The notes under the pieces are model-generated. The model did not search any database and was not told where the DNA came from. It worked only from the letters and a program-made list of their open reading frames with translations. Below, one piece after another: positions 47,367 to 60,927 of a stretch of 64,000 nucleotides of DNA. The stretch covers positions 2,852,001-2,916,000 of the forward strand of contig NZ_CP038266.1 in NCBI RefSeq assembly GCF_004564355.1, read 5' to 3'. Source of the stretch: Microbacterium wangchenii. Lineage in GTDB: Bacteria; Actinomycetota; Actinomycetes; Actinomycetales; Microbacteriaceae. The position numbers were made by a program, and so were the translations under genes. Each line of letters begins with the position of its first letter. The first letter of the stretch is position 1.

Positions 47367-48401
47367 ATGAGATTCCGCCCGCTGCGCCCCGAGTCCGCTC
47401 CCACGGGCGCCCTCCTCACCCCGCCCGCCCCACCTCCCGCGAGGATGCGCGCCCAGGTGCTGGACTCCGTCGGAGACGCCGCGGCGCTGCGCCCGGCCGA
47501 GGTCGAGGTCCCCACCCCCGCGCTCAGCGAAGTGCTCGTGCGCGTCGTGGCCGCCGGGGTCAACCAGATCGACTCGAAGACGCGGGCCGGCGCCGGGGTG
47601 TCGGAACAGATCTGCCACTACCCCGCGACGCTCGGGTACGACTTCAGCGGTGTCGTGGTGCAGGCGCCCTTCGAGGCGTACCCCTTCCCGCCCGGCACCG
47701 AGGTGTTCGGGATGTCAGCCTTCCCCCGCAGTCCTGGAAGCTACGCCGAATACGTCGTCGCCCCCGCGCTGTCCCTCGCGCGCAAGCCCGCATCCCTCTC
47801 GTACGTCGAGGCGGCCGGGGTGCCCCTGGCCGCACTGACGGCGTGGGGCATCGTGGTGGAGACCGCGCTCGCACACGAGGGCCAGCGCATCCTCATCCAC
47901 GCCGGCAGCGGCGGGGTCGGTCACTTCGCGGTCCAGTTCGCCGCCTACTTCGGGGCTCATGTCGTGGCGACCGGCTCCGCCCGCAATGCCGGCTGGCTCC
48001 GGGATCTGGGCGCCGCGGTCGTGGTGGACCACTCGACGCAGCGCTTCGAGGAGGTCGCCACCGACATCGACGTCGTGATCGACCTCGTCGGCAACGACTC
48101 CGCACACACCGGGAGGCGCTCGCTCGCCGTCCTGCGCCCCGGCGGCCTGCTGATCGAGGTGCCCCGCGGCACGTGGCCGGGCTTCGCCGAGGACGCGGCG
48201 GCCGCCGGCGTGCGAGCCACCGGCTACACCGTCATCCCCGATGGCGGCGTGCTCGCCACGATCGCGCGCCTGCTGGACTCGGGCGCCGTGCAGGTCTACG
48301 TCGACAGTGTCTTCGATCTGGCCGATGCCGCCGGCGCGCACGCCGAGCTGGAGCGGGGCCACGCGCGCGGCAAGGTCGTCCTACGCGTCAGCGACGACTA
48401 G
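47367..48401 (+). CDS. zinc-type medium-chain dehydrogenase / quinone oxidoreductase family protein
   Basis: 344 residues. GroES-like N-terminal domain (LVRVVAAGVNQIDSKTRAG...YPATLGYDFSGVVV) and a Rossmann domain with HAGSGGVGHFAVQFAAYFGAHVVAT. The catalytic zinc ligands of alcohol dehydrogenases are missing, as usual for quinone oxidoreductases; NADPH is the likely cofactor. GGAAGGAG stands ~8 nt before ATG 47367, deciding the start. A TGACTGG/CCAGTCA palindrome lies 40 bp upstream. Convergent with the aldolase-SDR gene. Confidence 0.88.
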   Translation: MRFRPLRPESAPTGALLTPPAPPPARMRAQVLDSVGDAAALRPAEVEVPTPALSEVLVRVVAAGVNQIDSKTRAGAGVSEQICHYPATLGYDFSGVVVQAPFEAYPFPPGTEVFGMSAFPRSPGSYAEYVVAPALSLARKPASLSYVEAAGVPLAALTAWGIVVETALAHEGQRILIHAGSGGVGHFAVQFAAYFGAHVVATGSARNAGWLRDLGAAVVVDHSTQRFEEVATDIDVVIDLVGNDSAHTGRRSLAVLRPGGLLIEVPRGTWPGFAEDAAAAGVRATGYTVIPDGGVLATIARLLDSGAVQVYVDSVFDLADAAGAHAELERGHARGKVVLRVSDD

Positions 48402-48412
48402 AAGCCCGCGCT

Positions 48413-50338
48413 TCAGATCACGCGGTCGTTGCCGCCGTCAACGCTCACATGCGCGCCGGTGGTCGCCGGAAAGGACGTGCACAGGGCGACGACCGCTTCG
48501 GCGACCGTGGCGCTGCGCACCTCGACGCCGAGGAGGTTCCGCGTGCGGTACTCCGCCACCGTGAGACCGTAGTGAGCGGCGCGGGCCTCGAGCAGTTCCG
48601 GGGTCCAGATCGCCGTGTCGAAGACGGCATCCGGTTCCACCTGGTTGACCCGGACGCGGTCGGCCGCCCACTCCAGCGCGGCCACGCGTGCCAACTGCGC
48701 CGCCGCCGTCTTACTGGCCGAGTACGCCGCCGCGCCCGGACCGGGCGCCGCGACGTTCTTCGTGGAGACCAGCACGACCCGCCCCCCGCGGGGCGCTCGC
48801 GCCAGGACGGGGTGCACCGCGCGCAGGAGCCGCATGGGAGCGGTGACGTTGACGCGGAGGGCACGGTCCCATACCTCGTCGGCCACCTCGGCCACCGCCT
48901 GCGAGGGCGGGAAGATCCCCGCCGCGATCACGACGATGTCCACGCCGCCGAACTCGCGCACGGCGGTGTCCACCGCCGCGTCCAGCACGGCAGGATCGCT
49001 CACGTCACCCACGATGCTGCGCCAGGCGTCGCCGGAGCCGACCTCGGCCACGGCGTCGGAGAGGTCGACGCCCACGACCGCCGCACCATCGGCGATCAGC
49101 CGCTCGGCCACGGCGCGGCCGATCCCGGATGCCGCGCCCGTCACGATCGCGACCTCGCCGGTGAGCGGCCGGCGCGTGCGGCCGGCCAGTTTCGCCTGCT
49201 CGAGCGACCAGTATTCGATGTCGAACGTGTCGGACTCGTCCAGCGAGCGGTATCCGCCCAGGCGGTCGGCGGCGTCGATGACGTCCATGGTGTGAAGTGC
49301 CACATCGGCGGCCACCCGCAGGTCCGAGACCGACCCTCCCGCGAAGAGGCAGCCCAGCTCCGGATCGAAGATGACGCGGGGCGCCGGGTCGAGCTCGGTG
49401 ATCTCCGTCGTTGCCCGCGTGCGATGCCGCGCGACGTAGTCGCGATACCGCGCCGCGTACGCGGCGACGTCGAGACCCACGAGCGGTTCCCGCTTGGTGT
49501 ACAGCACGTGCTCGGGGGTCGCCGTCCCGCGGCCGGACACTGCCGCCACGTCGGGGCGCCGCGCGAATTCGTCCGCACGACCGGATGACGACTGCCGCAC
49601 GAGCATCGGACGCCCGGCCGCGGTGGACACCGCCTCGCGCAGCTGCGCGATCGCCGCGACAGAGCCCGAGCGGTCGATCTCCGCCCCAGGATCGCCCCAC
49701 ACCGGCACGCCGGCGGCGGCGGACGCGCGGGCCACGAGGTCGCGGTGCCGGGCCAACGTCGCGTCCGGATCGTCGCCGAAGGTGAAGAGTCCGTGGTTGC
49801 TGAGCACGACCGCATCCACGCCGGAGACGTCCGTCCCGGCGACCAGCCGCGCGAGGCCGAAGCCCGGTTTGACGTAGGGCAGCACGACTACCCGGTCGCC
49901 GAGCACCTCCGTGATGGCGGCGGGGGCGACGTCGCGGTTGGTGAGCGCGACGATCGCGTCGGCATGCGAGTGCAGCACGACCCGTCCGGGGAGGTAGGCG
50001 TGCAGCAGCGCCTCGATCGACGCGGTGGGTGCGGAGGCGTCGAGCGAGGCCTGACGCAGTTCGTTCACCATGGCGGCGTCGTCCAGCTGCTCCAGCTGCA
50101 GCAGATCGTGCAGGCGCGCGCGGCGCAGCGGTGCGAAGCCCGCGGCCTGGATCGTGGCGAGGTTCCACCCGCTGCCCTTCACCAGGACGAGCTCGACCGC
50201 TTCACCGGTGACGTCGACACCCGTGGTCTTGATCGAGGTGTTGCCCCCGCCGTGCAGGACATAGGCGGGGTCGGAGCCGAGGGCGCGGCTGACCCGCACG
50301 ATCTCGGCCAGCGCGTCGGGCGACGAGGCGACGCTCAC
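48413..50338 (-). CDS. bifunctional class II aldolase / short-chain dehydrogenase (RhaD-SDR fusion)
   Basis: 641 residues. Residues ~1-385 are a class II (RhaD/FucA-like) aldolase: YVLHGGGNTSIK at 26-37, the zinc ligands in VVLHSHADAIVALTNRD and SNHGLFTFGDD. Residues ~395-641 are an SDR: VTGAASGIGRAV cofactor loop, catalytic Ser in VLVSTKN and YSASK. Similar fusions (B. subtilis RhaEW/YuxG) cleave rhamnulose 1-phosphate and oxidise the lactaldehyde formed. GTG start overlaps the kinase stop (GTGA). Last gene of the operon. In this setting without a rhamnose isomerase the natural ketose phosphate may be a different one. Confidence 0.9.
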   Translation of the reverse strand: MSVASSPDALAEIVRVSRALGSDPAYVLHGGGNTSIKTTGVDVTGEAVELVLVKGSGWNLATIQAAGFAPLRRARLHDLLQLEQLDDAAMVNELRQASLDASAPTASIEALLHAYLPGRVVLHSHADAIVALTNRDVAPAAITEVLGDRVVVLPYVKPGFGLARLVAGTDVSGVDAVVLSNHGLFTFGDDPDATLARHRDLVARASAAAGVPVWGDPGAEIDRSGSVAAIAQLREAVSTAAGRPMLVRQSSSGRADEFARRPDVAAVSGRGTATPEHVLYTKREPLVGLDVAAYAARYRDYVARHRTRATTEITELDPAPRVIFDPELGCLFAGGSVSDLRVAADVALHTMDVIDAADRLGGYRSLDESDTFDIEYWSLEQAKLAGRTRRPLTGEVAIVTGAASGIGRAVAERLIADGAAVVGVDLSDAVAEVGSGDAWRSIVGDVSDPAVLDAAVDTAVREFGGVDIVVIAAGIFPPSQAVAEVADEVWDRALRVNVTAPMRLLRAVHPVLARAPRGGRVVLVSTKNVAAPGPGAAAYSASKTAAAQLARVAALEWAADRVRVNQVEPDAVFDTAIWTPELLEARAAHYGLTVAEYRTRNLLGVEVRSATVAEAVVALCTSFPATTGAHVSVDGGNDRVI

Positions 50339-51825
50339 GCCGTGGCCTCCCATACCGCGCGCATGGCGCTGAGGGCGCGGTCGAACGTCGCTGACTGCCG
50401 CGCGTAATCCGCGGCGCATTCCCCCGGCTCGACCACGAGGCGCGGGTCCGGCTCCGCGTGCCACGCCGCGGTGTCCATGCCCACGCCCCGCGCGGCGAGC
50501 CACGCCACGCCACGGGCACCCAGCTCGGTGCCCAGCTGACGCCGCATGGGGTGCCCGACGACGTCGGCGAACATCTGCGCCCACACGGGGTTCTTCGCCC
50601 CGCCGCCGGCGAGCGTCCACGGTCCGGCGGAGACCTCCGCCCCGCTGGAGCGGACCTTGCCCAGCTGCACGCGGTGATACTGCGTGATCCCTTCGGCCAC
50701 GGCGCGGGCCACGTGCGGATAGCCGTGATTCCCCTTGACGCCGAGGAAGGTGCCCGAGGCACCCAGGTGCTCGGGCGCCCCGTGGATGAAGGGCAGGAAC
50801 AGCAGGCCGTCGGCCAGCGGCGGCGCGCTCTGCCCCGCGGTCAGCAGGTCGCGCGGCGTGACGGGGATCGTGGCTCGCGCGCCGAGGAGACCGGCAGCCC
50901 ATTCGATGCTGGCCGCGGACGTCGGGGCGACCTCCATGGCGAGCATCGCGGCCGGATCGGGCAGCAGCGCGTTGATCGTGACGCGCGGCGGATCGGTGTC
51001 GGCCGGCACCACGACACTGTTGATCGCCCACGTGCCGACGATCACCGTGACATCGCCCAGTGCGGTCGCACCCGCACCCAGCGGGCTGGCGACGCAGTCC
51101 ATGCATCCGGCGACGACCGGGGTGCCCAGCGGCAACCCGGTGCGCGCGGAGGCGTCGGCGGTCACGGCGCCGACGACCTCATCCGATGCGCGCAGCGGAG
51201 GGAACAGCCGAGACGTGTCCGCGGGAAGGCCCAGCAGCTCGAGCACGGCCGGCTCGTAGTCCCGGGTCGCCAGGTTCACCAGTCCGCAGCCGGACGAATC
51301 CGACAGGTCCGCCTGCGCCGAACCGGCCAGGCACGCGGCGATCCAGTCCTTGCACGTGAGCGCCCAGCGGGAGCGCTGGAGCACGTCGGGCTCGTGGTCG
51401 TGCAGCCAGCGCAGCAGCACGCCCGGCTGCGCGGCCCACGGCATCGACCCCGTGACGCGGCGCACGCGCTCCACCTCCGCGGCGTCCAAGGACGCCACGA
51501 TCGCCTCGGCGCGATGATCCGTCGACGCGATGGCCGTGCGCACCGGGCGCAGGTCCTCATCCACGAGGTAGAGCCCGTTGCCGTGACCGGTGGCGGCGAC
51601 CGCCGCGATCGTCCAGCCGTCTCGTGCGAGGTCGGCGGTGAGATCGCGCAGCACGTCGGCGACGACGTCCCACAGCGCGTCCATATCCACCTCCTGCCGC
51701 TCGCGCGAGACGGCGACGCGCGGGTTGGGGGCGGAGACGGTGCGGATCTCGTTGCCCGCCTCGTCGAAGGCGGCCGCCTTCGCCGAGGTCAGGCCCACGT
51801 CGATCCCGATGACACAGGTGCTCAT
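50335..51825 (-). CDS. FGGY-family carbohydrate/polyol kinase
   Basis: 496 residues. N-terminal phosphate-binding strand VIGIDVGLTSAKAAAFDEAGNEI; catalytic Asp in GCMDCVASPLGAGATALGD; adenosine motif WTLAGGGAKNPVWAQMFADVVGHPM. It phosphorylates a sugar or alditol taken up by the ABC transporter of the same operon. The sequence is closer in pattern to xylulose/erythritol-type kinases than to LsrK. ATG 51825 has only a distant AGGAG (~17 nt). 22 bp follow the dehydrogenase gene; its stop overlaps the aldolase start. Confidence 0.9.
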   Translation of the reverse strand: MSTCVIGIDVGLTSAKAAAFDEAGNEIRTVSAPNPRVAVSRERQEVDMDALWDVVADVLRDLTADLARDGWTIAAVAATGHGNGLYLVDEDLRPVRTAIASTDHRAEAIVASLDAAEVERVRRVTGSMPWAAQPGVLLRWLHDHEPDVLQRSRWALTCKDWIAACLAGSAQADLSDSSGCGLVNLATRDYEPAVLELLGLPADTSRLFPPLRASDEVVGAVTADASARTGLPLGTPVVAGCMDCVASPLGAGATALGDVTVIVGTWAINSVVVPADTDPPRVTINALLPDPAAMLAMEVAPTSAASIEWAAGLLGARATIPVTPRDLLTAGQSAPPLADGLLFLPFIHGAPEHLGASGTFLGVKGNHGYPHVARAVAEGITQYHRVQLGKVRSSGAEVSAGPWTLAGGGAKNPVWAQMFADVVGHPMRRQLGTELGARGVAWLAARGVGMDTAAWHAEPDPRLVVEPGECAADYARQSATFDRALSAMRAVWEATA

Positions 51826-51847
51826 GATGGTGTCCGCTCTCCTGTCC

Positions 51848-53500
51848 TCACGGGGTCTGCTCAAGACCGGGGGCGTCCCGCAGCGCTCTGGGCACGAAGC
51901 GCCGAACCGATACACGGTAGCGCGCGATCTCCGCGTCGGCGTGCTCCTCGCTCCAGCCGGCGTACGCCACCAGGACCGCCGCTGCGCGCGGTGCGCACGA
52001 GAGCCCCACATCGCTGTTCAACGCGATGACGGTGCGTCGCAGCAGCACGTCCTCGAGCGTCACAGCGCCTTCCTCCCGGACCGCGTGGAGGATCTCGGCC
52101 GCGATCGCGCCCGTCTCCTCGTCGACGATCTCGGCGAGGGCGGGGTCGGTCGCGGCGAGCATCTCGATCTCCCGCGCGAGCGTGCCGTACACGTCGGCGA
52201 GGCGAGCGGCGGTGCGCTCGGGCAGCGAGCTGCGCTCCACGAACGAGGCACGGAACTGCGCCACGTCCTCGGCGGGGGCGCCGGGGAAGCGCGCGTCGCG
52301 CGTCGGCGAGGTCTGTCTCCGGAGCCCCAGCAGCTTCTCGATCTTTCGCAGCGTCTGCTCGCCGAGCGCGCGATGCGTGGTGTACTTGCCGCCGATGATC
52401 GTCACGAGACCGGCGGAGTCCCCGTCGTGCACCACGATCTCGCTGTCCCGGCTGACCGAGGAGGGGTCGGTCAGATCTGCGACGTAGGGCAGCGGGCGCA
52501 CCCCCGAGTAGGACCACAGCACGTCGTCGGGGGTGAGGCCGGCCTCGGGGATGATCGTGTTGACCGACGTCAGCAGATAGTCCACTTCGTCCCCGTCGAT
52601 CGCGATGTCCTCGATCGACCCGTCGTAGGGCAGATCGGTCGTGCCCAGCATGAAGCGCCCGTCCCACCAGGGCAGGACGAACATGGGGCGACCGTCCTGC
52701 GGAGAGTCGAAGAAGACGCACGTGGCGGGGGCGCCGGGGAAGGTGTCCACCACGAGGTGGCTGCCCTTGGTGGGACCGATCCGCCGGGGGTGGGTTCCGG
52801 CGAGGGCGAGGACCTCGTCCGCCCAGGGGCCGGCGGAGTTCACGACGACGGGGGCGCGCAGTTCCTGCTCCTGGCCGCTCTCCCGGTCGCGGTAGACCAC
52901 GCCGGCGATCCGCCCGCCTTCACGCAGCAGCGCCGTGACGGGAGTGTGCGTGAGCACCGTGGCACCGTTGCGCGACGCGTCGATCGCCAGTTCGGTGGCG
53001 AAACGCTCGGTCACCGGCACGTGCGCGTCCTGGAACAGGCCGCCCCACTTGACACCGGCCTTCGCCACCGACGGCCACTCCCGCGAGAGGCGGCCGCCGA
53101 ACACGATGCGGTTCAGCGGCAGGCGCTTGCCGATCGCGAGCACGTCGTGCACGATGAGGCCGCACGACATCAGCCAGCCCGGCGTCTTGTTCCACTTCGC
53201 GAACGGGATCAGCATCGGATAGGGCAGCACCAGGTGCGGCGCCGCCTTCAGCAGGATGTCGCGCTCGCGGATCGACTCGAAGACCAGCGGGATCTCGAAC
53301 CGCGGCAGGTACTTCAGTCCCCCGTGGATGAGGCGGGTCGAGATCGCCGACGTGCGTGCGGCGATGTCGTCACGGTCGATCATGACGACGTGGAGTCCGC
53401 GGGCGGCCGCTTCACGCGTGATGGCGAGGCCGTTGATGCCGGCGCCGATCACGACGACGTCGGCCGAGTGGGGCGCGCTGTGGGTGCGCAGAGTGGGCAT
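51848..53500 (-). CDS. FAD-dependent glycerol-3-phosphate dehydrogenase-like enzyme (GlpD/EryB family)
   Basis: 550 residues. FAD fingerprint VVVIGAGINGLAITREAAARGL (residues ~14-35), then SAISTRLIHGGLKYLPRFE, typical of GlpD; IGGKYTTHRALGEQTL and a C-terminal helical cap (~400-550). GlpD relatives oxidise phosphorylated polyols (glycerol 3-phosphate, erythritol 4-phosphate) and pass electrons to quinones at the membrane. Start: ATG 53500 with GAAGG upstream; the longer frame includes a hairpin and is rejected. Located between kinase and LsrF-like genes, so the substrate is probably the kinase product. Confidence 0.9.
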   Translation of the reverse strand: MPTLRTHSAPHSADVVVIGAGINGLAITREAAARGLHVVMIDRDDIAARTSAISTRLIHGGLKYLPRFEIPLVFESIRERDILLKAAPHLVLPYPMLIPFAKWNKTPGWLMSCGLIVHDVLAIGKRLPLNRIVFGGRLSREWPSVAKAGVKWGGLFQDAHVPVTERFATELAIDASRNGATVLTHTPVTALLREGGRIAGVVYRDRESGQEQELRAPVVVNSAGPWADEVLALAGTHPRRIGPTKGSHLVVDTFPGAPATCVFFDSPQDGRPMFVLPWWDGRFMLGTTDLPYDGSIEDIAIDGDEVDYLLTSVNTIIPEAGLTPDDVLWSYSGVRPLPYVADLTDPSSVSRDSEIVVHDGDSAGLVTIIGGKYTTHRALGEQTLRKIEKLLGLRRQTSPTRDARFPGAPAEDVAQFRASFVERSSLPERTAARLADVYGTLAREIEMLAATDPALAEIVDEETGAIAAEILHAVREEGAVTLEDVLLRRTVIALNSDVGLSCAPRAAAVLVAYAGWSEEHADAEIARYRVSVRRFVPRALRDAPGLEQTP

Positions 53501-53517
53501 GGGATTGTGTCCTTCGG

Positions 53518-53550
53518 GCGTGCGGGCGCCCGGGTGGGGCGCCCGCACGC
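53518..53550 (-). other. strong intra-operon hairpin between lsrF-like and glpD-like genes
   Basis: 14-bp perfect stem (GCGTGCGGGCGCCC at 53518-53531, complement at 53537-53550) with a 5-nt loop and no T-tract. It may lower transcription of, or stabilise the mRNA in front of, the catabolic genes. Confidence 0.7.
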
Positions 53551-53555
53551 CGGTG

Positions 53556-54428
53556 TCAGTGGGAGAGGGACTGGAAGAGCTCGAACGCGTCGGCCGGGTT
53601 CAGGCCGTCGTGGACGACACCGCGGACGGCGGCGAGCATGGCGGCCGGGTGCTCGGACTGGAACACGTTCCGGCCCATGTCGACGCCCGCGGCGCCCTCC
53701 TGCATGGCCTGGTACGCCACGCGCAGGGCCTCCTGCTCCTCGACCTTCTTGCCGCCGGCGATCACGATCGGCACGGGGCACGCGCTCGTGATGGTCTCGA
53801 AGCCCTCCTCGACGTAGTACGTCTTCACGAAGGCGGCGCCCAGCTCGGCGCTGATGCGGGTGGCGAGACGGAAGTACCGCGCGTCGCGCACCATGTCGCG
53901 ACCGACGGCGGTGACCGCGAGCACCGGGATCCCCGTCGCCTGACCCTGGTCGACGAGCGTGGTGAGGTTCTTGATCGACTTGGTCTCGTTCTCACCGCCG
54001 ACGAACACCTGCACCGCCAGAGCGGCGGCGTCCAGGCGCACGGCGTCATCGATGGAGACCGCGAGCTCTTCGTCGGACAGCTCCTTCAGGACGCTCGGTC
54101 CCCCCGAGGCGCGCAGGACGATGCCCTTGCCGTTGTCGGCGGGGATCGTGGTGCGGAGAGCTCCGCGCGTGCACATGAGGGCATCGGCCTGCGGGACCAG
54201 CGGCAGGATGGAGCGCTCGAGGTTCTCCAGCCCGGAGGTGGGGCCCTGGAAGTAGCCGTGATCGAACGCGAGCATGACGGTCTTGCCATCGCTCGGGTCG
54301 AACACGCGCGACAGACGCGCGCGCAGGCCCCAGTCCTGGCCGGACTGGCCCTTCAGGTGGAAAGCGCCGGGGGCCGTGCGGGCGGCGGAGAAGTCCGTGC
54401 CGTCGCGGAGGTCGTCGAGGTCAGCCAT
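53556..54428 (-). CDS. LsrF-like class I aldolase/thiolase
   Basis: 290 residues, a DeoC/LsrF-type TIM barrel that matches E. coli LsrF over its length by eye: [64 protein letters not shown] and [11 protein letters not shown], where Lys202 aligns with the Schiff-base Lys203 of LsrF. LsrF transfers an acetyl group from a phosphorylated AI-2 derivative to CoA; other relatives are aldolases. It overlaps the upstream permease gene by 8 bases, placing it directly after the transporter genes as in lsr operons. Confidence 0.88.
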
Positions 54429-55473
54429 GGATGGGCTCCTTCTGTGTTGTGGTGGTGGACGCTGCCTGCGGCGCGCCCGGGGTCAGGGAGGCACGCAGCC
54501 GCCGGATGCTGGTGCGACCGGTGCCGGTGGCGGCGGAGGCGACGATGACGACCAGGACGACCAGGACGCCCTTCAGCACGTTCTGGGCGCCGACGGACCA
54601 GCCGACGAGGTTCAGCAGCCCCGACAGCAGCACGAAGAAGAGGGCACCGGTCCAGGCACCGGTCGCGACCGGGCGTCCGCCGGAGATGAGGGTGCCGCCG
54701 ATCACGACGACCGCGATCGAATCGAGCATGTAGGACGTACCCAGCTGCGTGCTGGGCGAGATGAACGCGGCCAGCAGGCCGCCCACCAGCCCGGCGAAAC
54801 CGGCGCTGACGAGGTAGGCGGTCGCGGTGACGGCGACGACCTTGAGCCCCGCCCGCTCGGCGGCACGCTCGCTCTGGCCCACCGCGATGATCGACAGCCC
54901 GAGCCGGGTGTGGCGCAGCAGGAACCAGATGACCACGGTGACCAGCACGACGAGGAGGGCGATGAGGGGGATGCCGAGCACCTTGGCATTGACGAACGAG
55001 CGCAGCGCCGGATCCGCACCGCCCCGTGCGGCATCGGCGAGCAGCAGTGTCGCGCTGGTGACGACCAGACTCGTTGCGAGGGTGGCGATGATCGGGGGGA
55101 CCCGCAGCAGCAGGATGGCTGCGACGCTGACGGCGCCCGCGGCGACTCCGGCGCCCGCGGCGGCGGCGAGGCCCACGACCGGTCCCGCCGTCGCTCCCAC
55201 GGCCACCGAGACGTACGAGGTCATCGAGACGATCGTGCCGACGGACACATCGATGTTGCCGGGGCCGAGGGTGATGACGAGCATCTGCCCCAGTGCGACC
55301 AGCACGAGGAACGGCGCCAGCGAGAGCGCCTGGGTCAGCGGGTCGAGCGGCGCGCCGGGGCGCACCGCGACGATGACGGCCCACACCGCGAGCACGCCGA
55401 TGAGGGACCACCCCCACGCGGGCCACGTGAGGCGGCGGCGCTCGGTCGGTACGGCGTTGTCGATGGCGCTCAT
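54421..55473 (-). CDS. sugar ABC transporter permease (RbsC/LsrD-like)
   Basis: 350 residues with about nine helices. [27 protein letters not shown] is the RbsC-family signature after helix 3, and [32 protein letters not shown] the C-terminal one. Second of two permeases, starting four bases inside the first (ATGA). Together they would form the heterodimeric pore used by ribose/AI-2-type importers. The C-terminal tail is hydrophilic and Thr-rich. Confidence 0.9.
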
Positions 55474-56441
55474 CGGACGAACCTCTCGGTGATGATGCGG
55501 CCGGCCAGCACAGCGATGACGATGAGTCCCTGTGCGGCCGACTGCAGGCTGGAGGGCAGGTTGATGAGGCTCAGCAGGACGGTGATGAGCCCGAGGGTGA
55601 CCGCCCCGAGCGTGGTGCCGATCGGCATTGCACGACCTCCGGCGAAGGTGCCGCCGCCGAGGATCACGGCGGCGATCGTCATGAGCGTGTACTCGCTGGC
55701 CGCGTTGATGTCACCCGACCAGGTCTGGGAGGCGAGCATGAGGCCGGCGAGGATCATGAGGATCGCGGCGATCACGTACGCGGCGATGCGGGTGGCGGCG
55801 AGCGATACGCCTGCCTTCTCGAGCGTCGGGGCCTGTGAGCCGAGCGCACGCATGCGCGTGCCGATGCGCGCACGACGCGTGACGTACCAGCCGATCAGCG
55901 TCGCGGCGATGATGAAGATCACGGGGGCCGGGAACCACGTGGGTCGCCACGTCGAGATGACCGACAGCCACGCGGGCGTCTCGCCTCCCGGCGTCGGGCG
56001 GATCTGCAGGCCGATGCCCAGCCACACGAACGACATGCCGAGCGTGATGATGATGGAGGGCACACCGCGCTGCTGCACGACGTACGCGATGACGGCGTAG
56101 GCGACGACGATCCCGACGATCGAGGCGAGCGCGAGCAGCGGCGCGTCCACGAAGAGCGTCGCGGCGATGACGGTGACCAGACCCACCAGGAACCCGATCC
56201 CGAGGTCGATGTCGCCGACGCTCATGATGATCATCTGCGCCTGCGCGGCGAGCACGAGGGGCACCGACGACATGAGCATGAGCGTCAGACCGGGAACGCT
56301 CAGGATGCCCGGCTGCAGCGTCGCGGTGATCGCGAAGATCGCCACCAGTGCCACGAGCGCGAGCAGAGCGGGCGATCCGTTCACGGCGTCGGCGCGCAGG
56401 CGCTGACCCGTGGAGGGGAACGAGACGGTGGCGGTGCTCAT
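55470..56441 (-). CDS. sugar ABC transporter permease (RbsC/LsrC-like)
   Basis: 323 residues, about nine helices. AQAQMIIMSVGDIDLGIGFLVGLVTV and ILGGGTFAGGRAMPIGTTLGAVTLGLITVLLSLINLPSSLQ are the family blocks. Its start overlaps the ATPase stop (ATGA) and its stop the next permease start. Paralogue of the following permease. Confidence 0.9.
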   Translation of the reverse strand: MSTATVSFPSTGQRLRADAVNGSPALLALVALVAIFAITATLQPGILSVPGLTLMLMSSVPLVLAAQAQMIIMSVGDIDLGIGFLVGLVTVIAATLFVDAPLLALASIVGIVVAYAVIAYVVQQRGVPSIIITLGMSFVWLGIGLQIRPTPGGETPAWLSVISTWRPTWFPAPVIFIIAATLIGWYVTRRARIGTRMRALGSQAPTLEKAGVSLAATRIAAYVIAAILMILAGLMLASQTWSGDINAASEYTLMTIAAVILGGGTFAGGRAMPIGTTLGAVTLGLITVLLSLINLPSSLQSAAQGLIVIAVLAGRIITERFVR

Positions 56442-57934
56442 CGAGCGTCCTCCTGCGTGCGGTCGTCGCCGCCGAACGAGTCGGCGATGATGCGGTCTTC
56501 CGTGATGTCGTCGTCGGCGAGCTGGCTCACGATGCGGCCGGAGCGGAACACGTAGACGCGGTCGCAGTGCGCCATCTCGCCGTTCTCCGTCGAGTACCAG
56601 ACGATCGAGCGGCCCCGGGAGGCTTCCACGCGCATGAGGGCGTAGAGCTCGTTCTTGGTGGCGACGTCCACGCCTCGGAAGGGGTCGTCCAGCAGCACCA
56701 GGGCCGCGTCCGTGGCGAAGGCGCGGGCGACGAGCACCTTCTGCTGGTTGCCGCCCGAGAGCGAGGTGATCGGCGCGCGGGCGCCGCCCTTGACGCTTAG
56801 GCGCTGCACCCATTCGTCCGCGAGCGCGCGCTTGCGGCCCGAGCGGATGACGCCGCCGGAGGAGAGCTGCCGGGAGGCCGAGACGGTGAGGTTCTCCGCG
56901 ACGCTCCACAGCGGGAAGATGCCGCTGGTCTGACGGTCGCCGGGCACGTAGGCGCGGCGCTTGGCGACGGTGACCCCCCGCGCGCTGGTCCACAGCCGCC
57001 GCAGGAGCACGTCCTGTCCATGGCCGGCGAGCCCGGCCAGGCCGACGATCTCGCCCGGCTGCACGACGAAGGGCACGCCCTCCCCGGTGATGCGCGCGAC
57101 CGTTCCGCCCTGGCGGATGTCGGCGCGCTCGGTGGCGCTGACCCGGCGGACGGTGGCCGTGTCGGCATGCACTTCGCCGCCCATCGTGGACAGCAGAGCC
57201 TGTTCGGAGGTGGCACGTGCCGCGACGGTGTCCACGATCCGGCCGTCCTTCATCACGGCGATGCGGTCCGCGTTCGCCAGGACCTCCTGCATCCGGTGCG
57301 AGATGAGCACCATGGCGACACCGGATGCGGCGAGCTCGCGCAGGTGCGCATACAACTGGGCGGTGGCGTCGACGCTGAGCGACTCGGTCGGCTCGTCGAG
57401 GATGAGCATGGCGAGATCAGGCGTGCAGAGAGCGCGGGCGATCTCGACCATCTGCCGCTGCGCCATCGTCAGATCGCTCGTGCGGCGCACGATCGCGATG
57501 CCGTGCCCCGGGAAGACGTGATCGAGCTTCTCGGCGACGTGCCGTTCGGCGGTGCGCCGCCACGCCAGGCCGCGGGCGCCGCGATCGGAGAGGGCGATGT
57601 TCTCCGCGACCGTCAGGTCAGGGCACAGCGCCAGCTCCTGGTAGACCATGCGGACGCCGGCGCGAGCGGCCGCGGACTGGTTCCACGCCGCGCCGCCGCG
57701 CCAGCTCACGCTGCCGGCATCGGGCTGCTCGCGCCCGGCCAGCACGCGCATGAGGGTGCTCTTGCCGGCGCCGTTGTGGCCGACCAGTCCGAGGATCTCG
57801 CCCGCCCGCACGGTGACGTCGATCCCGGCGAGGGCCGTCGTGCTGCCGTACCGCTTGGACACGTCCTGCGCCGTCAGCACGACCTGCGTCGCCTCGGGCG
57901 AAGCAGAGGGGGGACTCTGCGTCACGGATGCCAT
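56438..57934 (-). CDS. sugar ABC transporter ATP-binding protein, two fused ATPase domains (RbsA/LsrA-like)
   Basis: 498 residues. Domain 1 has Walker A GHNGAGKST and LILDEPTESLS; domain 2 (~260-498) lacks a standard Walker A, as usual for this family, but has LSGGNQQKVLVARAFATDAALVLLDDPFRGVD. In domain 1 the signature is LTMAQRQMVEIARAL. I chose ATG 57934 because GAAGGAG lies 7 nt upstream; a GTG 12 codons earlier overlaps the binding-protein stop. Energises the two permeases. Confidence 0.9.
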   Translation of the reverse strand: MASVTQSPPSASPEATQVVLTAQDVSKRYGSTTALAGIDVTVRAGEILGLVGHNGAGKSTLMRVLAGREQPDAGSVSWRGGAAWNQSAAARAGVRMVYQELALCPDLTVAENIALSDRGARGLAWRRTAERHVAEKLDHVFPGHGIAIVRRTSDLTMAQRQMVEIARALCTPDLAMLILDEPTESLSVDATAQLYAHLRELAASGVAMVLISHRMQEVLANADRIAVMKDGRIVDTVAARATSEQALLSTMGGEVHADTATVRRVSATERADIRQGGTVARITGEGVPFVVQPGEIVGLAGLAGHGQDVLLRRLWTSARGVTVAKRRAYVPGDRQTSGIFPLWSVAENLTVSASRQLSSGGVIRSGRKRALADEWVQRLSVKGGARAPITSLSGGNQQKVLVARAFATDAALVLLDDPFRGVDVATKNELYALMRVEASRGRSIVWYSTENGEMAHCDRVYVFRSGRIVSQLADDDITEDRIIADSFGGDDRTQEDAR

Positions 57935-57966
57935 CGGGTGCTCCTTCGAACTGGTCGGCCGGTCGG

Positions 57967-59055
57967 TCACTTCTGCAGCGCCGGTGCCTGCACGTCTTCG
58001 CCGTTCTCGAGCGCCTCGAGGGCGGCCTCGATCGACTCGTCATCCCACGCGATGGCGGCGTACTCGTCGGTGCCCAGCTCGGACACCCAGTAGTCGAGGT
58101 CCTCCTGCGCGATCTTCACCAGCGGCAGCACGACCTCGGCCGGCACGTCGTCACCGCGCTCCTTGGCGAGGGCGACGTAGATGGCGGCGACGACCTGGCC
58201 GGGGTCGGTGAGGGCGGCGAAGGAGCCGTTGTCGATGCCGCTGTCCTGCCAGAACTTCAGCGACTTGCCGTCGGTGTCGAAGACGACCACGGGTGCCTCA
58301 CGACCGGCGGACTCGAACGCCTGCACGATGCCCATGCCGCCGATGCAGCCGGGCACCGCCGCGATCTCGGGGAGCGATCCGAGGATTCCGACGATCTCCT
58401 TCTGCGCGGTCGCCGAGTCGCAGAAGCCGTTGATCTCGGCGGCGACCTTCACATCCGGGTAGTCGGCGAGGATCTCCAGCTGACGCGCGTGGAACGCCTC
58501 CTCGGGCTGAGAACCCACGACGCCGCGGTTGATGACGATGTCGCCCTTGCCGCCGATCGCCTCGAGGGCGGGTTCAAGGGAGTCCGCACCCCACTGGCCG
58601 TACTCGTTGCGCACCACGGTGCCGCAGCTGGTCTCCATGTCGGCGTCGAGAATGATGACGTTGATGCCGGCGGTGCAGGCCTCTTCGATGACGGGCTTGA
58701 GCGCGCTGGAGGACGCCGGGATGACCATGAGGACGTCGGGGTTCTGCAGCATGAGGCTGCGGATCTGCGACGCCTGTTCGGTGGCGCTGTTCTCGCCCGG
58801 GGCGTTCACCACCGAGTAGTCCGACACGACGCCTTCGGCCTTGAGCTTGTCCGCCTCGGTCTCGAACTTGTCGATGAGCGTGAGGCGCCATCCGTTGACG
58901 AAGCCGTTGGACAGCGCGATCTTCAGCCCTTCGGGCTCGCCGCCCTCCGTGCCGTTTCCGGCGTCGGCGGTGCCGCCGCAGCCGGCGAGGAGCAGGGTCG
59001 CCGCGACGGTCGCGGCGACCGCGGCGCCGGCACGTCGGATGTGGGGGAACTTCAT
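57967..59055 (-). CDS. sugar-binding lipoprotein of the polyol/sugar ABC importer (Peripla_BP_4)
   Basis: 362 residues. Basic N-terminus, hydrophobic core and lipobox LAGC (Cys near residue 25), followed by a Gly/Glu linker. The ligand domain begins LKIALSNGFVNGWRLTLIDKFETEAD, similar to RbsB/LsrB-type receptors; VMVIPASSSALKPVIEEACTAGINVIILDAD fits the hinge region. Two in-frame ATGs exist; the second (59055) has AGGAGG at 8-nt spacing, the first only at 2 nt. First gene of the operon, with CATAAT at 59126-59131 as probable -10. Confidence 0.9.
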   Translation of the reverse strand: MKFPHIRRAGAAVAATVAATLLLAGCGGTADAGNGTEGGEPEGLKIALSNGFVNGWRLTLIDKFETEADKLKAEGVVSDYSVVNAPGENSATEQASQIRSLMLQNPDVLMVIPASSSALKPVIEEACTAGINVIILDADMETSCGTVVRNEYGQWGADSLEPALEAIGGKGDIVINRGVVGSQPEEAFHARQLEILADYPDVKVAAEINGFCDSATAQKEIVGILGSLPEIAAVPGCIGGMGIVQAFESAGREAPVVVFDTDGKSLKFWQDSGIDNGSFAALTDPGQVVAAIYVALAKERGDDVPAEVVLPLVKIAQEDLDYWVSELGTDEYAAIAWDDESIEAALEALENGEDVQAPALQK

Positions 59056-59125
59056 TGTCATTGCCTCCTGGTTCGCTTCGTCGCGAAGTGACGAACGCTG
59101 AGCGGTCGGGCACCGCTCGGGACCT

Positions 59126-59155
59126 ATTATGACCAACATGTCATGATGAGTTGGT
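59126..59155. promoter_or_regulatory. promoter and operators of the sugar/polyol operon
   Basis: On the minus strand CATAAT (59131-59126) is a good -10 without a clear -35. Overlapping it are ATGAC-N6-GTCAT (59129-59144) and ACCAAC-N12-GTTGGT (59132-59155), candidate sites for the divergent GntR/UTRA regulator. The surrounding 59150-59170 bases are strikingly AT-rich for this genome. Confidence 0.5.
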
Positions 59156-59262
59156 AATGACTAAGATAGGCATGCGTCGCGGCGCTGTCAATCGCGGCGA
59201 CTCCGGCCCGCCGAGCACGCGCGATACGCTCTGAGCACTGGCGCCGGACCGAAGGAGCCGCC

Positions 59263-60012
59263 ATGTCCACACCCGCGTCGTACCCCGTCCTCGACCGCGA
59301 GGCGGATGCGCCGCTGTGGCAGCAACTGGCCAGGGTGCTGCGTCAGGAGATCGAATCCGGGCTGCTCCGCGCCGATCAGGCGCTCCCCTCCGAATCCGAG
59401 CTCATCGACCGCTACAGCGTCTCGCGGACCGTCGTGCGGGAGGCCCTGGCCGAACTGGTGCGCGCCGGCCTCATCTACAAGGTGCGTGCGCGCGGGTCTT
59501 TCGTGGCGCCCCAGCGGCCGGATCTGAAGTTCATCGGCTCGATGGCGGGTTCCTCCGACGATCTGTCCACGACCGGGCGCAACGTCACCACGCGCGTCCT
59601 CGATTTCGAGGTGGGCCCGGCCAGCCCCGACGACGCCCAGGCGCTCCGCCTCCCCTCCGGCTCCCAGGTCGTACGCCTGCGTCGCCTGCGCCGCGTGGAC
59701 GGCACGCCCTGGCTTCTCGTGGACACGGTTCTCCCCTATGACCGCTTCCCGACCCTGGGCAGGGCGAACCTGGAGAACCGGTCCCTGTACGAGCATCTGC
59801 GCCGGCACTTCGGCGTCCACCCCAGCGGGGCGGACCGCTGGATCAGCGCCGTCGTACCGGGGGAAGAGGACGCCCGGTTGCTGGAGCTCAAGCCCGGCCA
59901 GCCCGTGCTGGCCATCGAGTCGCTGGCGTGGGACGACGACGGAGTGCCGTTCGAGCGCTACAACGCCCTGCACCGCAGCGACGAGTCGCGCTTCCACGTC
60001 GGCATCCGCTGA
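59263..60012 (+). CDS. GntR-family regulator, HutC/UTRA type
   Basis: 249 residues. GntR winged helix at ~12-80 (PLWQQLARVLRQEIESGLLRADQALPSESELIDRYSVSRTVVREALAELVRAGLIYKVRARGSFV) and a UTRA effector domain at ~90-245. AAGGAG 5 nt before the ATG. It is divergent from the nine-gene sugar/polyol operon and likely represses it, with a phosphorylated pathway intermediate or the substrate as inducer. TACGCT at 59225-59230 may be its own -10. Confidence 0.92.
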   Translation: MSTPASYPVLDREADAPLWQQLARVLRQEIESGLLRADQALPSESELIDRYSVSRTVVREALAELVRAGLIYKVRARGSFVAPQRPDLKFIGSMAGSSDDLSTTGRNVTTRVLDFEVGPASPDDAQALRLPSGSQVVRLRRLRRVDGTPWLLVDTVLPYDRFPTLGRANLENRSLYEHLRRHFGVHPSGADRWISAVVPGEEDARLLELKPGQPVLAIESLAWDDDGVPFERYNALHRSDESRFHVGIR

Positions 60013-60042
60013 CCAGGCGGAGCCCGACCGGCGAGCGGGCGC

Positions 60043-60927
60043 TCACGCGGCGGCCAGCACCCGCGCGCCCTCCTGCACGACCTCGTCGGCGATCTCGTCG
60101 AGGAGCGGGGAGGTGAGGTTCCACTGCTGCCAGAACAGGGGGACGTCCACGGGCGCGCCGCCCAGGAGGACGAGCTCGCCCGAGCGCACGTGCTCCTCCG
60201 ACTGGAACGGCGGAAGCAGCCCCCACCCGAGGCCCAGCCGGATCGCCGTGGCGAAGTCGTGCGAGGCGGGGACGAGATGACGCGGAGGCGAACCGGCCGG
60301 CGCCTGATCGGCGAGCCAGCGCGACTGCAGGTCGTCACGGCGGTCGAAGTCCACCACCGGAGCCTGCGCGAGGGCGTCGCCGTCGACGCCGTCCGGGAAC
60401 CAGCGCCGCGCGAACTCGGCGCTGGCGACCGCCTCGTACCGCAGCACGCCGACCGCGCGCACGCGACATCCGGCCACCGGCGCCTCCCGGGAGGTGATCG
60501 CCCCCATCACCGTCCCCGATTCCAGCAGGCCCGCCGTGAAGTCCTGATCGTCGCGGTGGAGCTGGAAGACCACCCGGTGACGCTCCGCCACCCGGGCCAG
60601 CGGCGGCAGGAACCACGTCGCCAGGGAGTCGGCGTTGACGGCGAGGGGCACGACGGCGGTCGCGGCCTCATCGGAGCCGATGCCGGCCAGGGCGTCGTGC
60701 TCGAGGAGGTCGAGCTGGCGGGCGAGGCGGACGACGGCCTGTCCCGCCTCCGTGGCGCGGACCGGCTTGGTGCGCACGAGCACGACGCGCCCCAGCCGGG
60801 CCTCCAGCGCCCGTACTCGCTGACTCACGGCGGAGGGGGTCACGTGCAGACGCCGGGCGGCGGCCTCCAGGGTGCCCTCATCGAGGATGACCGCGAGCGT
60901 GCGGGCCAGATCGACGGGGATGGACAT
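60043..60927 (-). CDS. LysR-family regulator, LysG/ArgP type
   Basis: 294 residues. N-terminal helix-turn-helix DLARTLAVILDEGTLEAAARRLHVTPSAVSQRVRALEARLGRVVLVRTKPVRATEAGQAV, then a two-lobe effector domain. It activates the divergent LysE-type exporter in response to basic amino acids in Corynebacterium, and the arrangement is the same here. TAGCCT 6 nt before the ATG gives a leaderless mRNA. Confidence 0.93.
   Translation of the reverse strand: MSIPVDLARTLAVILDEGTLEAAARRLHVTPSAVSQRVRALEARLGRVVLVRTKPVRATEAGQAVVRLARQLDLLEHDALAGIGSDEAATAVVPLAVNADSLATWFLPPLARVAERHRVVFQLHRDDQDFTAGLLESGTVMGAITSREAPVAGCRVRAVGVLRYEAVASAEFARRWFPDGVDGDALAQAPVVDFDRRDDLQSRWLADQAPAGSPPRHLVPASHDFATAIRLGLGWGLLPPFQSEEHVRSGELVLLGGAPVDVPLFWQQWNLTSPLLDEIADEVVQEGARVLAAA

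Follow-up and report, generated by a model that had tools for sequence, protein, structure and literature searches.

In the dihydroxyacetone phosphate (DHAP) shunt, the products of mtnK, mtnA and ald2 take 5-deoxyribose to DHAP and an aldehyde; the paper describing it mentions LsrF 0 times (PMC12632272). Processing of autoinducer-2 (AI-2) ends in DHAP and acetyl-CoA (PMC7828210). For Escherichia coli LsrF, whose residues of interest are numbered Asp57, His58, Lys203, Asp251 and Arg254, a published study describes an enzyme without the aldolase Tyr/Glu and with Asp251 in their place, and proposes a mechanism in which a Schiff base is formed on the carbonyl adjoining CH2OP and DHAP is lost (PMC2728841). 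The locus analysed here comes from Microbacterium wangchenii (Microbacteriaceae) and occupies positions 48,413 to 60,012 of a stretch of 64,000 nucleotides (contig NZ_CP038266.1, 2,852,001 to 2,916,000), referred to below as the window, which is part of a 3.83 Mb one-contig genome. It brings together a sugar importer, an LsrF homologue, a flavoenzyme resembling GlpD, an FGGY kinase, a fusion of a class II aldolase with a short-chain dehydrogenase/reductase (SDR) and a divergent regulator. That these nine genes constitute one unit, encoding a single regulated pathway with the kinase, the GlpD-like enzyme and LsrF at its core, appears well supported by the comparison of gene sets, while the aldolase-SDR more likely provides a parallel or accessory branch. 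As to the substrate, the genomic context points, with chances that we put at about even, to a deoxy-C5 polyol or deoxy ketose; phosphorylation, oxidation of the carbon next to the phosphate and cleavage would turn it into DHAP and acetyl-CoA or acetaldehyde. The gene set, the families, the catalytic residues, the single promoter-like site, the conservation, the core and the link of the aldolase-SDR clade to MtnA/MtnK are read directly from the DNA.

Gene content and conservation

A sequence-only reading of the window had assigned nine genes to these families, and all of them are present:

48413..50338, minus strand: class II aldolase-SDR fusion (Aldolase_II 1.7e-15, adh_short 3.1e-40)
50335..51825, minus strand: FGGY carbohydrate kinase (FGGY_N 9.1e-49)
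51848..53500, minus strand: GlpD-type flavin adenine dinucleotide (FAD) dehydrogenase, specialised paralogue (DAO, DAO_C)
53556..54428, minus strand: LsrF family, 3-hydroxy-5-phosphonooxypentane-2,4-dione thiolase (NF006081, 456.1 bits, cut-off 297)
54421..55473, minus strand: CUT2 permease 2 (BPD_transp_2)
55470..56441, minus strand: CUT2 permease 1 (BPD_transp_2)
56438..57970, minus strand: CUT2 sugar ABC ATPase with two nucleotide-binding domains (alternative start ATG 57934)
57967..59061, minus strand: substrate-binding lipoprotein (SBP; Peripla_BP_4)
59263..60012, plus strand: GntR/UTRA regulator, divergent (Pfam GntR 1e-16, UTRA 1.5e-41)

The minus-strand genes are read in the order SBP, ATPase, permease, permease, LsrF, GlpD-like enzyme, FGGY kinase and aldolase-SDR, with the GntR/UTRA gene divergent from them. 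The Peripla_BP_4 SBP, the two-domain ATPase and the BPD_transp_2 permeases identify the importer as a CUT2 sugar ABC transporter. Start-stop overlaps, earlier described as joining nearly all of the genes, are found at four of the seven junctions, or at five if the ATPase starts at GTG 57970 (ATG 57934 has the better ribosome-binding site), and true gaps of 55 nt between LsrF and the GlpD-like gene and of 22 nt between the latter and the kinase gene remain.

The distribution of the locus was surveyed in 299 Microbacteriaceae genomes. LsrF was found in 16 of them at E<=1e-60, the GlpD-like enzyme in 21 at E<=1e-110 and the aldolase-SDR in 17 at E<=1e-110; each search returned 12 close relatives (identity of at least 76%, 61% and 62%, respectively), and the three sets of 12 consist of identical genomes. 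Within these 12 the aldolase-SDR is in two pieces with a stop in G271, cut by a contig end in G284 and partial in G093. A comparison of gene neighbourhoods in the family, as the sequence-only reading had proposed, shows the same set again: at close LsrF genes, each of the 11 additional loci inspected (L018-L028) has the nine genes in the same order, divergent regulator included (in L022 the contig stops within the last gene, which in L023 is in two pieces), so the gene order is not due to chance. Six further Microbacteriaceae loci agree (L033, L034, L035, L036, L039 and L040; the contig of L033 ends before the regulator, and L037 and L038 are repeats). Five other genomes of the same genus that were listed have no counterpart of the locus, and its distribution is therefore patchy. 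In one carrier (L023; G271:C1:24591-26488) an in-frame stop splits the aldolase-SDR gene of an otherwise intact operon.

Promoter-like site, operator-like site and regulator

Promoter and operator calls were made as consensus matches, which are no proof of function, and yielded two adjacent sites:

59163..59191, minus strand: promoter-like site TTGACA-17-TATCTT, reading into the SBP gene, the only sigma-70-like match in 48200-60100
59133..59154, no strand assigned: palindromic operator-like site just downstream of the -10 element, with a conserved 14-mer

The single sigma-70-like match in this interval, counted on both strands (shuffled sequences gave a mean of 0.5, sd 0.8), is located in the spacer that separates the divergent regulator gene from that of the SBP, and the same promoter layout was seen in most of the aligned orthologous intergenic regions (22 regions, one without TTGAC having been left out). 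If three mismatches are allowed, the operator-like 14-mer is present in 19 of the 23 intergenic regions from orthologous loci; if two are allowed, the 3.83 Mb genome contains it once (reversed control, 0), which suggests that the GntR/UTRA protein, as it appears, is a dedicated regulator of the nine-gene operon. One terminator-like site was detected in the same interval and falls within the second permease gene (shuffled sequences gave a mean of 1.6).

One promoter-like site, one operator-like site and the recurrence of the gene set back the earlier proposal of one system in a substrate-specific operon. That proposal had been set against the case in which LsrF and the aldolase belong to different transcripts and respond to different inducers, and the outcome, a single promoter-like site and a single operator-like site genome-wide, is the opposite. 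A related explanation holds that the enzymes act on separate substrates and share the importer by chance. The lack of the aldolase-SDR in one lineage and its interruption in G271 would fit this, but the single pair of regulatory sites, the identical 12-genome distribution and the same gene set on unrelated plasmids make it very improbable.

LsrF and the three-enzyme core

LsrF of the window passes its curated cut-off by the scores given above and shares 59% identity with LsrF records of E. coli. The catalytic Lys, the Asp pair and the phosphate residues are conserved: E. coli D57, H58, K203, D251 and R254 correspond to D56, H57, K202, D250 and R253 of the window protein, and in a set of 94 sequences each is found in 97% or more. 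The substrate named in the LsrF model is 3-hydroxy-5-phosphonooxypentane-2,4-dione. These features bear on the main rival explanation, according to which the FGGY kinase and the GlpD-like enzyme would turn an ordinary C5 or C6 polyol into a ketose-1-phosphate, with LsrF as a plain class I aldolase releasing DHAP and glycolaldehyde or glyceraldehyde, with the aldolase-SDR serving other diastereomers and oxidising the aldehyde. Such a pathway is possible but doubtful, as LsrF carries the LsrF-type Asp instead of the aldolase Tyr and lies well over the LsrF cut-off, and the clade of the aldolase-SDR is tied to MtnA/MtnK, not to pentitol or hexitol genes.

The GlpD-like enzyme scores below the GlpD model NF008899 (334.2 vs a cut-off of 360). 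It is 32% identical to a separate GlpD-type frame of 609 aa in the same genome and 94% identical to a protein of Microbacterium lushaniae. Among the best 120 of 2044 GlpD-like homologues, the HGGL-R/K-Y motif has Lys in 118 and Arg in one, and was not found in one. The Arg-to-Lys change was dropped as a GlpD signature, since the enzyme of the Sagittula module described below has Arg and the role of this residue is only presumed by us. For the FGGY kinase the best model is XylB, at 203.2 vs a cut-off of 380.25. GlpD-like relatives of 46% and 42% identity were also observed in Rubrobacter and Shinella (L130:1756-12053, L131:5590-17590), next to an FGGY or glycerol-kinase-like gene, a class II fructose-bisphosphate aldolase and thiamine pyrophosphate-dependent E1/E2 genes of the acetoin-dehydrogenase type.

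The core recurs beyond the family. Nine loci from at least eight distinct genomes, L041-L045 (three Microbispora, one Nonomuraea and one Streptomyces) and L120-L123 (four genomes of one family, one locus repeating L044), hold GntR, SBP, ATPase, two permeases, LsrF, the GlpD-like enzyme and the kinase, and here the operon ends at the kinase. No aldolase-SDR was found at E<=1e-40 in two of the four L120-L123 genomes, one of them the single-contig G454; the other two have a copy of 35-36% identity elsewhere in the genome. In Mycobacterium sp. 236(2023) (L048) a regulator of this type is transcribed away from just two genes, LsrF and the GlpD-like gene. These Streptosporangiaceae/Streptomyces loci without the aldolase-SDR, together with L048, suggest that the kinase, the GlpD-like enzyme and LsrF would make a self-sufficient pathway to which the aldolase-SDR is accessory. 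The two successive cleavages of the sequence-only reading are hard to maintain, since at least eight genomes have the other components but not the fusion.

The mycobacterial region (L048:1613-8350) also contains, beside LsrF and the GlpD-like gene, a DeoR/LsrR-type regulator, a phosphofuranose-lactonase-like protein, a 3-keto-gulonate-6-phosphate-decarboxylase-like protein and an aldolase part resembling the aldolase-SDR.

Related sets are carried by two alphaproteobacterial plasmids. The Shinella plasmid has LsrF, aldolase-SDR, SBP, ATPase, permease, FGGY kinase and GlpD, and the Sagittula plasmid has SBP, ATPase, permease, a sugar-binding regulator, GlpD, FGGY kinase, LsrF and a class II aldolase of 397 aa without an SDR domain. 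In a GlpD tree with long branches on some rows, the GlpD proteins of both plasmids are split from the actinobacterial ones by a 100/100 branch and group with the housekeeping-type protein. Either the combination arose on two occasions or one GlpD gene replaced another, and both origins imply selection for this combination of functions.

The aldolase-SDR fusion and its MtnA/MtnK company

The fusion retains the zinc ligands H123, H125 and H182, the acidic E109 and the SDR residues Y539 and K543. It scores below the RhaD-SDR model TIGR02632 (381.6 vs a cut-off of 567.75), whereas a second copy in the same genome, 32% identical to it, passes with 1017.2, which leaves the rhamnose layout invoked in the sequence-only reading a weak comparison; assignment as a rhamnose locus was rejected by these cut-offs, the true RhaD-SDR being encoded elsewhere in the genome. 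The same figures bear on a 6-deoxyhexitol substrate, similar to rhamnitol or fucitol, which would yield DHAP and lactaldehyde, the latter oxidised to lactate by the SDR domain as in the rhamnose pathway. The shared fusion architecture, the place of TIGR02632 among the better models and the fit of a deoxy compound to the methyl side of LsrF are in keeping with it; set against the missed cut-off, the low identity to the bona fide RhaD-SDR, the lack of an isomerase and a rhamnulokinase match of only 36.1 vs 527.95, they leave this substrate improbable.

A search outward from the aldolase-SDR covered Microbacteriaceae, and the tree comprised 39 rows. The window protein sits in a clade of 20 rows (100/99), 12 of which come from other contexts: five with MtnA, five with LsrF and no MtnA seen (Shinella, L082, L054, whose contig starts at the gene, L049 and L096) and two with neither (L138 and L143). 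Among the MtnA-linked rows, L139 and L137 have the operon MtnA-SBP-ATPase-permease-MtnK-class II aldolase-aldolase/SDR, L136 has MtnA divergent from the aldolase-SDR, and L062 and L070 have a contiguous MtnA-aldolase/SDR-LsrF arrangement; their MtnA and MtnK are over the respective cut-offs. The rows adjoining the clade of the locus are the MtnA-linked L137 and L136 (89/75). MtnA over its cut-off was found in none of the 16 locus genomes (weaker matches occur in G271 and G093) and in three of four comparison genomes. The MtnA-linked clade and this lack of MtnA over its cut-off suggest that the kinase and the GlpD-like enzyme may stand in for MtnK and MtnA, reaching the same ketose phosphate.

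The neighbourhood scan outward from LsrF covered the best 80 of 559 loci. A near full-length aldolase-SDR lies within 3 kb in 26 of 66 non-locus LsrF loci, and part of one in nine. LsrF, a ribulose-phosphate-3-epimerase-like gene and an aldolase-SDR adjoin in L053, L055, L059, L065, L074, L075 and others; this epimerase-like family is held by 15 LsrF loci, with Acidobacteriota, Planctomycetota, Fibrobacterota and others as hosts. DhaK- and DhaL-like kinase subunits directly precede LsrF in L082, L084, L087 and L105, with an aldolase-SDR or SDR nearby. The contiguous arrangements in L062:6879-10882 and L070:6887-10882 belong to SAR324 and deltaproteobacterial genome bins, and in L100, a Bacillota bin, MtnA, MtnK, aldolase-SDR and importer genes are found near LsrF.

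A tentative suggestion, which deserves consideration even though we lean against it, is that LsrF may chiefly be the thiolase of a widespread oxidative DHAP shunt rather than an AI-2 enzyme. In such a shunt 5-deoxypentulose-1-phosphate would be converted to a phosphorylated 2,4-dione and, with CoA, to DHAP and acetyl-CoA, no free acetaldehyde being formed. The ketose phosphate would be provided by MtnK/MtnA, by DhaK-type kinases or, in the present locus, by an FGGY kinase and a GlpD-like enzyme, and AI-2 processing by lsr would represent a later special use of an older module.

Proposed pathway and substrate

In the deoxy-C5 pathway that we favour, the operon would serve a single substrate, with the GntR/UTRA protein that it encodes as repressor. 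A small sugar-like compound would enter through the CUT2 importer, the FGGY kinase would phosphorylate its terminal CH2OH, and the GlpD-type flavoenzyme would oxidise the carbon adjoining CH2OP, the same position as that attacked by GlpD on glycerol-3-phosphate, giving a 2-keto-1-phosphate. LsrF would then form a Schiff base with the new keto group and split the chain with release of DHAP. The node of this scheme would be 5-deoxypentulose-1-phosphate or its C4-oxidised form, the dione named in the LsrF model. A 1-deoxypentulose could pass through its 5-phosphate and the dione to DHAP and acetyl-CoA with the three core enzymes alone. A 5-deoxypentitol could be brought via these three enzymes to 5-deoxypentulose-1-phosphate, which the aldolase domain would cleave to DHAP and acetaldehyde; alternatively, the SDR domain would oxidise its C4 and pass the product to LsrF. 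Step order, regiochemistry and substrate are what we infer here. The deoxy-C5 node is proposed because of the named substrate of LsrF and the company kept by the aldolase-SDR, and a methyl end is argued for since a CH2OH at this position would give a pentose-phosphate intermediate and make GlpD and LsrF superfluous. More generally, the earlier view is supported in so far as it has the phosphate of a polyol or deoxysugar undergo oxidation, followed by cleavage to a product of the DHAP type.

Several points weigh against a deoxy-C5 substrate. The carbon on which GlpD and EryB act has the L configuration, so that 1-deoxy-D-xylulose itself would not be a substrate without a change in specificity, and to our knowledge free deoxypentitols and deoxypentuloses are not common nutrients. 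The SBP model (mean predicted local distance difference test score, pLDDT, of 77.2) gave fold neighbours including 4PE6, a solved ortholog from Thermobispora bispora; the solved relatives next after it are M. smegmatis proteins that we take to bind ordinary polyols, and the ligands of the fold neighbours 4RS3, 4RSM and 5HKO are likewise our assumption. In Sagittula the aldolase lacks an SDR domain, and in the Streptosporangiaceae/Streptomyces version both domains are absent, so oxidation at C4 by an SDR is not general. No aldolase-SDR was found within 3 kb in 31 of the 66 non-locus LsrF loci, several of which are lsr operons, and L138, a close relative of the aldolase-SDR, has a xylose-type SBP and no MtnA.

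The deoxy-C5 pathway was not found among the papers listed on LsrF in general, on LsrF with FGGY/GlpD, on LsrF in actinobacteria or with methylthioribose, or on 1-deoxyxylulose catabolism. If it is correct, it would indicate which class of substrate is taken up by an importer family that is still an orphan although one structure (4PE6) is solved, account for LsrF far outside AI-2 users, and provide for both the disposal of and growth on deoxy-C5 compounds, which arise as side products of S-adenosylmethionine enzymes and from isoprenoid or AI-2 chemistry.

Comparison with described systems

By curated cut-offs the locus is neither an lsr nor a rhamnose locus. Like the lsr operon of enteric bacteria, it has a CUT2 importer, an FGGY kinase and LsrF; unlike that operon, it has a GntR/UTRA regulator and no LsrR, and a GlpD-like enzyme and an aldolase-SDR are added. 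LsrG is not among the nine genes, to which the search for it was confined. The sequence-only reading had limited the lsr likeness to importer and LsrF, overlooking that LsrK is an FGGY kinase, yet the LsrK and LsrB models are both far under their cut-offs (150.5 vs 528 and 19.1 vs 384). AI-2 scavenging, in the form of 4,5-dihydroxy-2,3-pentanedione (DPD), would require import, FGGY phosphorylation, reduction and re-oxidation by the SDR and the GlpD-like enzyme in place of LsrG, and then LsrF. Importer, FGGY kinase and LsrF do amount to the lsr set without LsrG, and an LsrR-type regulator is present in the Sagittula module, but the kinase and SBP scores and the regulator type make scavenging decidedly improbable. 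LuxS occurs in two of 16 carriers, the window genome included (G000:C1:1662715-1663149), though scavenging needs none. AI-2 was rejected as first choice on these grounds, and the LuxS of the genome itself counts against the rejection.

With the rhamnose RhaD-SDR locus the window locus shares the fused class II aldolase-SDR, a kinase and a CUT2 importer; it differs in an aldolase-SDR that falls under the RhaD cut-off. The erythritol genes eryABC of Marinovum pMaD5 likewise combine an FGGY kinase followed by a GlpD-type polyol-phosphate dehydrogenase with a CUT2 importer, but the kinase and dehydrogenase are only 29% and 36% identical, and the locus has LsrF cleavage and, among its nine genes, no EryC-type gene, for which reason the erythritol pathway was rejected. 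The DHAP shunt for 5-deoxyribose and methylthioribose resembles the proposed pathway in giving DHAP and a C2 piece from 5-deoxypentulose-1-phosphate and in using a class II aldolase, and the nearest relatives of the aldolase-SDR from other contexts sit in MtnA/MtnK operons. In place of MtnK and MtnA, however, the locus has an FGGY kinase and a GlpD-like enzyme, and it also has LsrF, an importer of its own and GntR/UTRA control.

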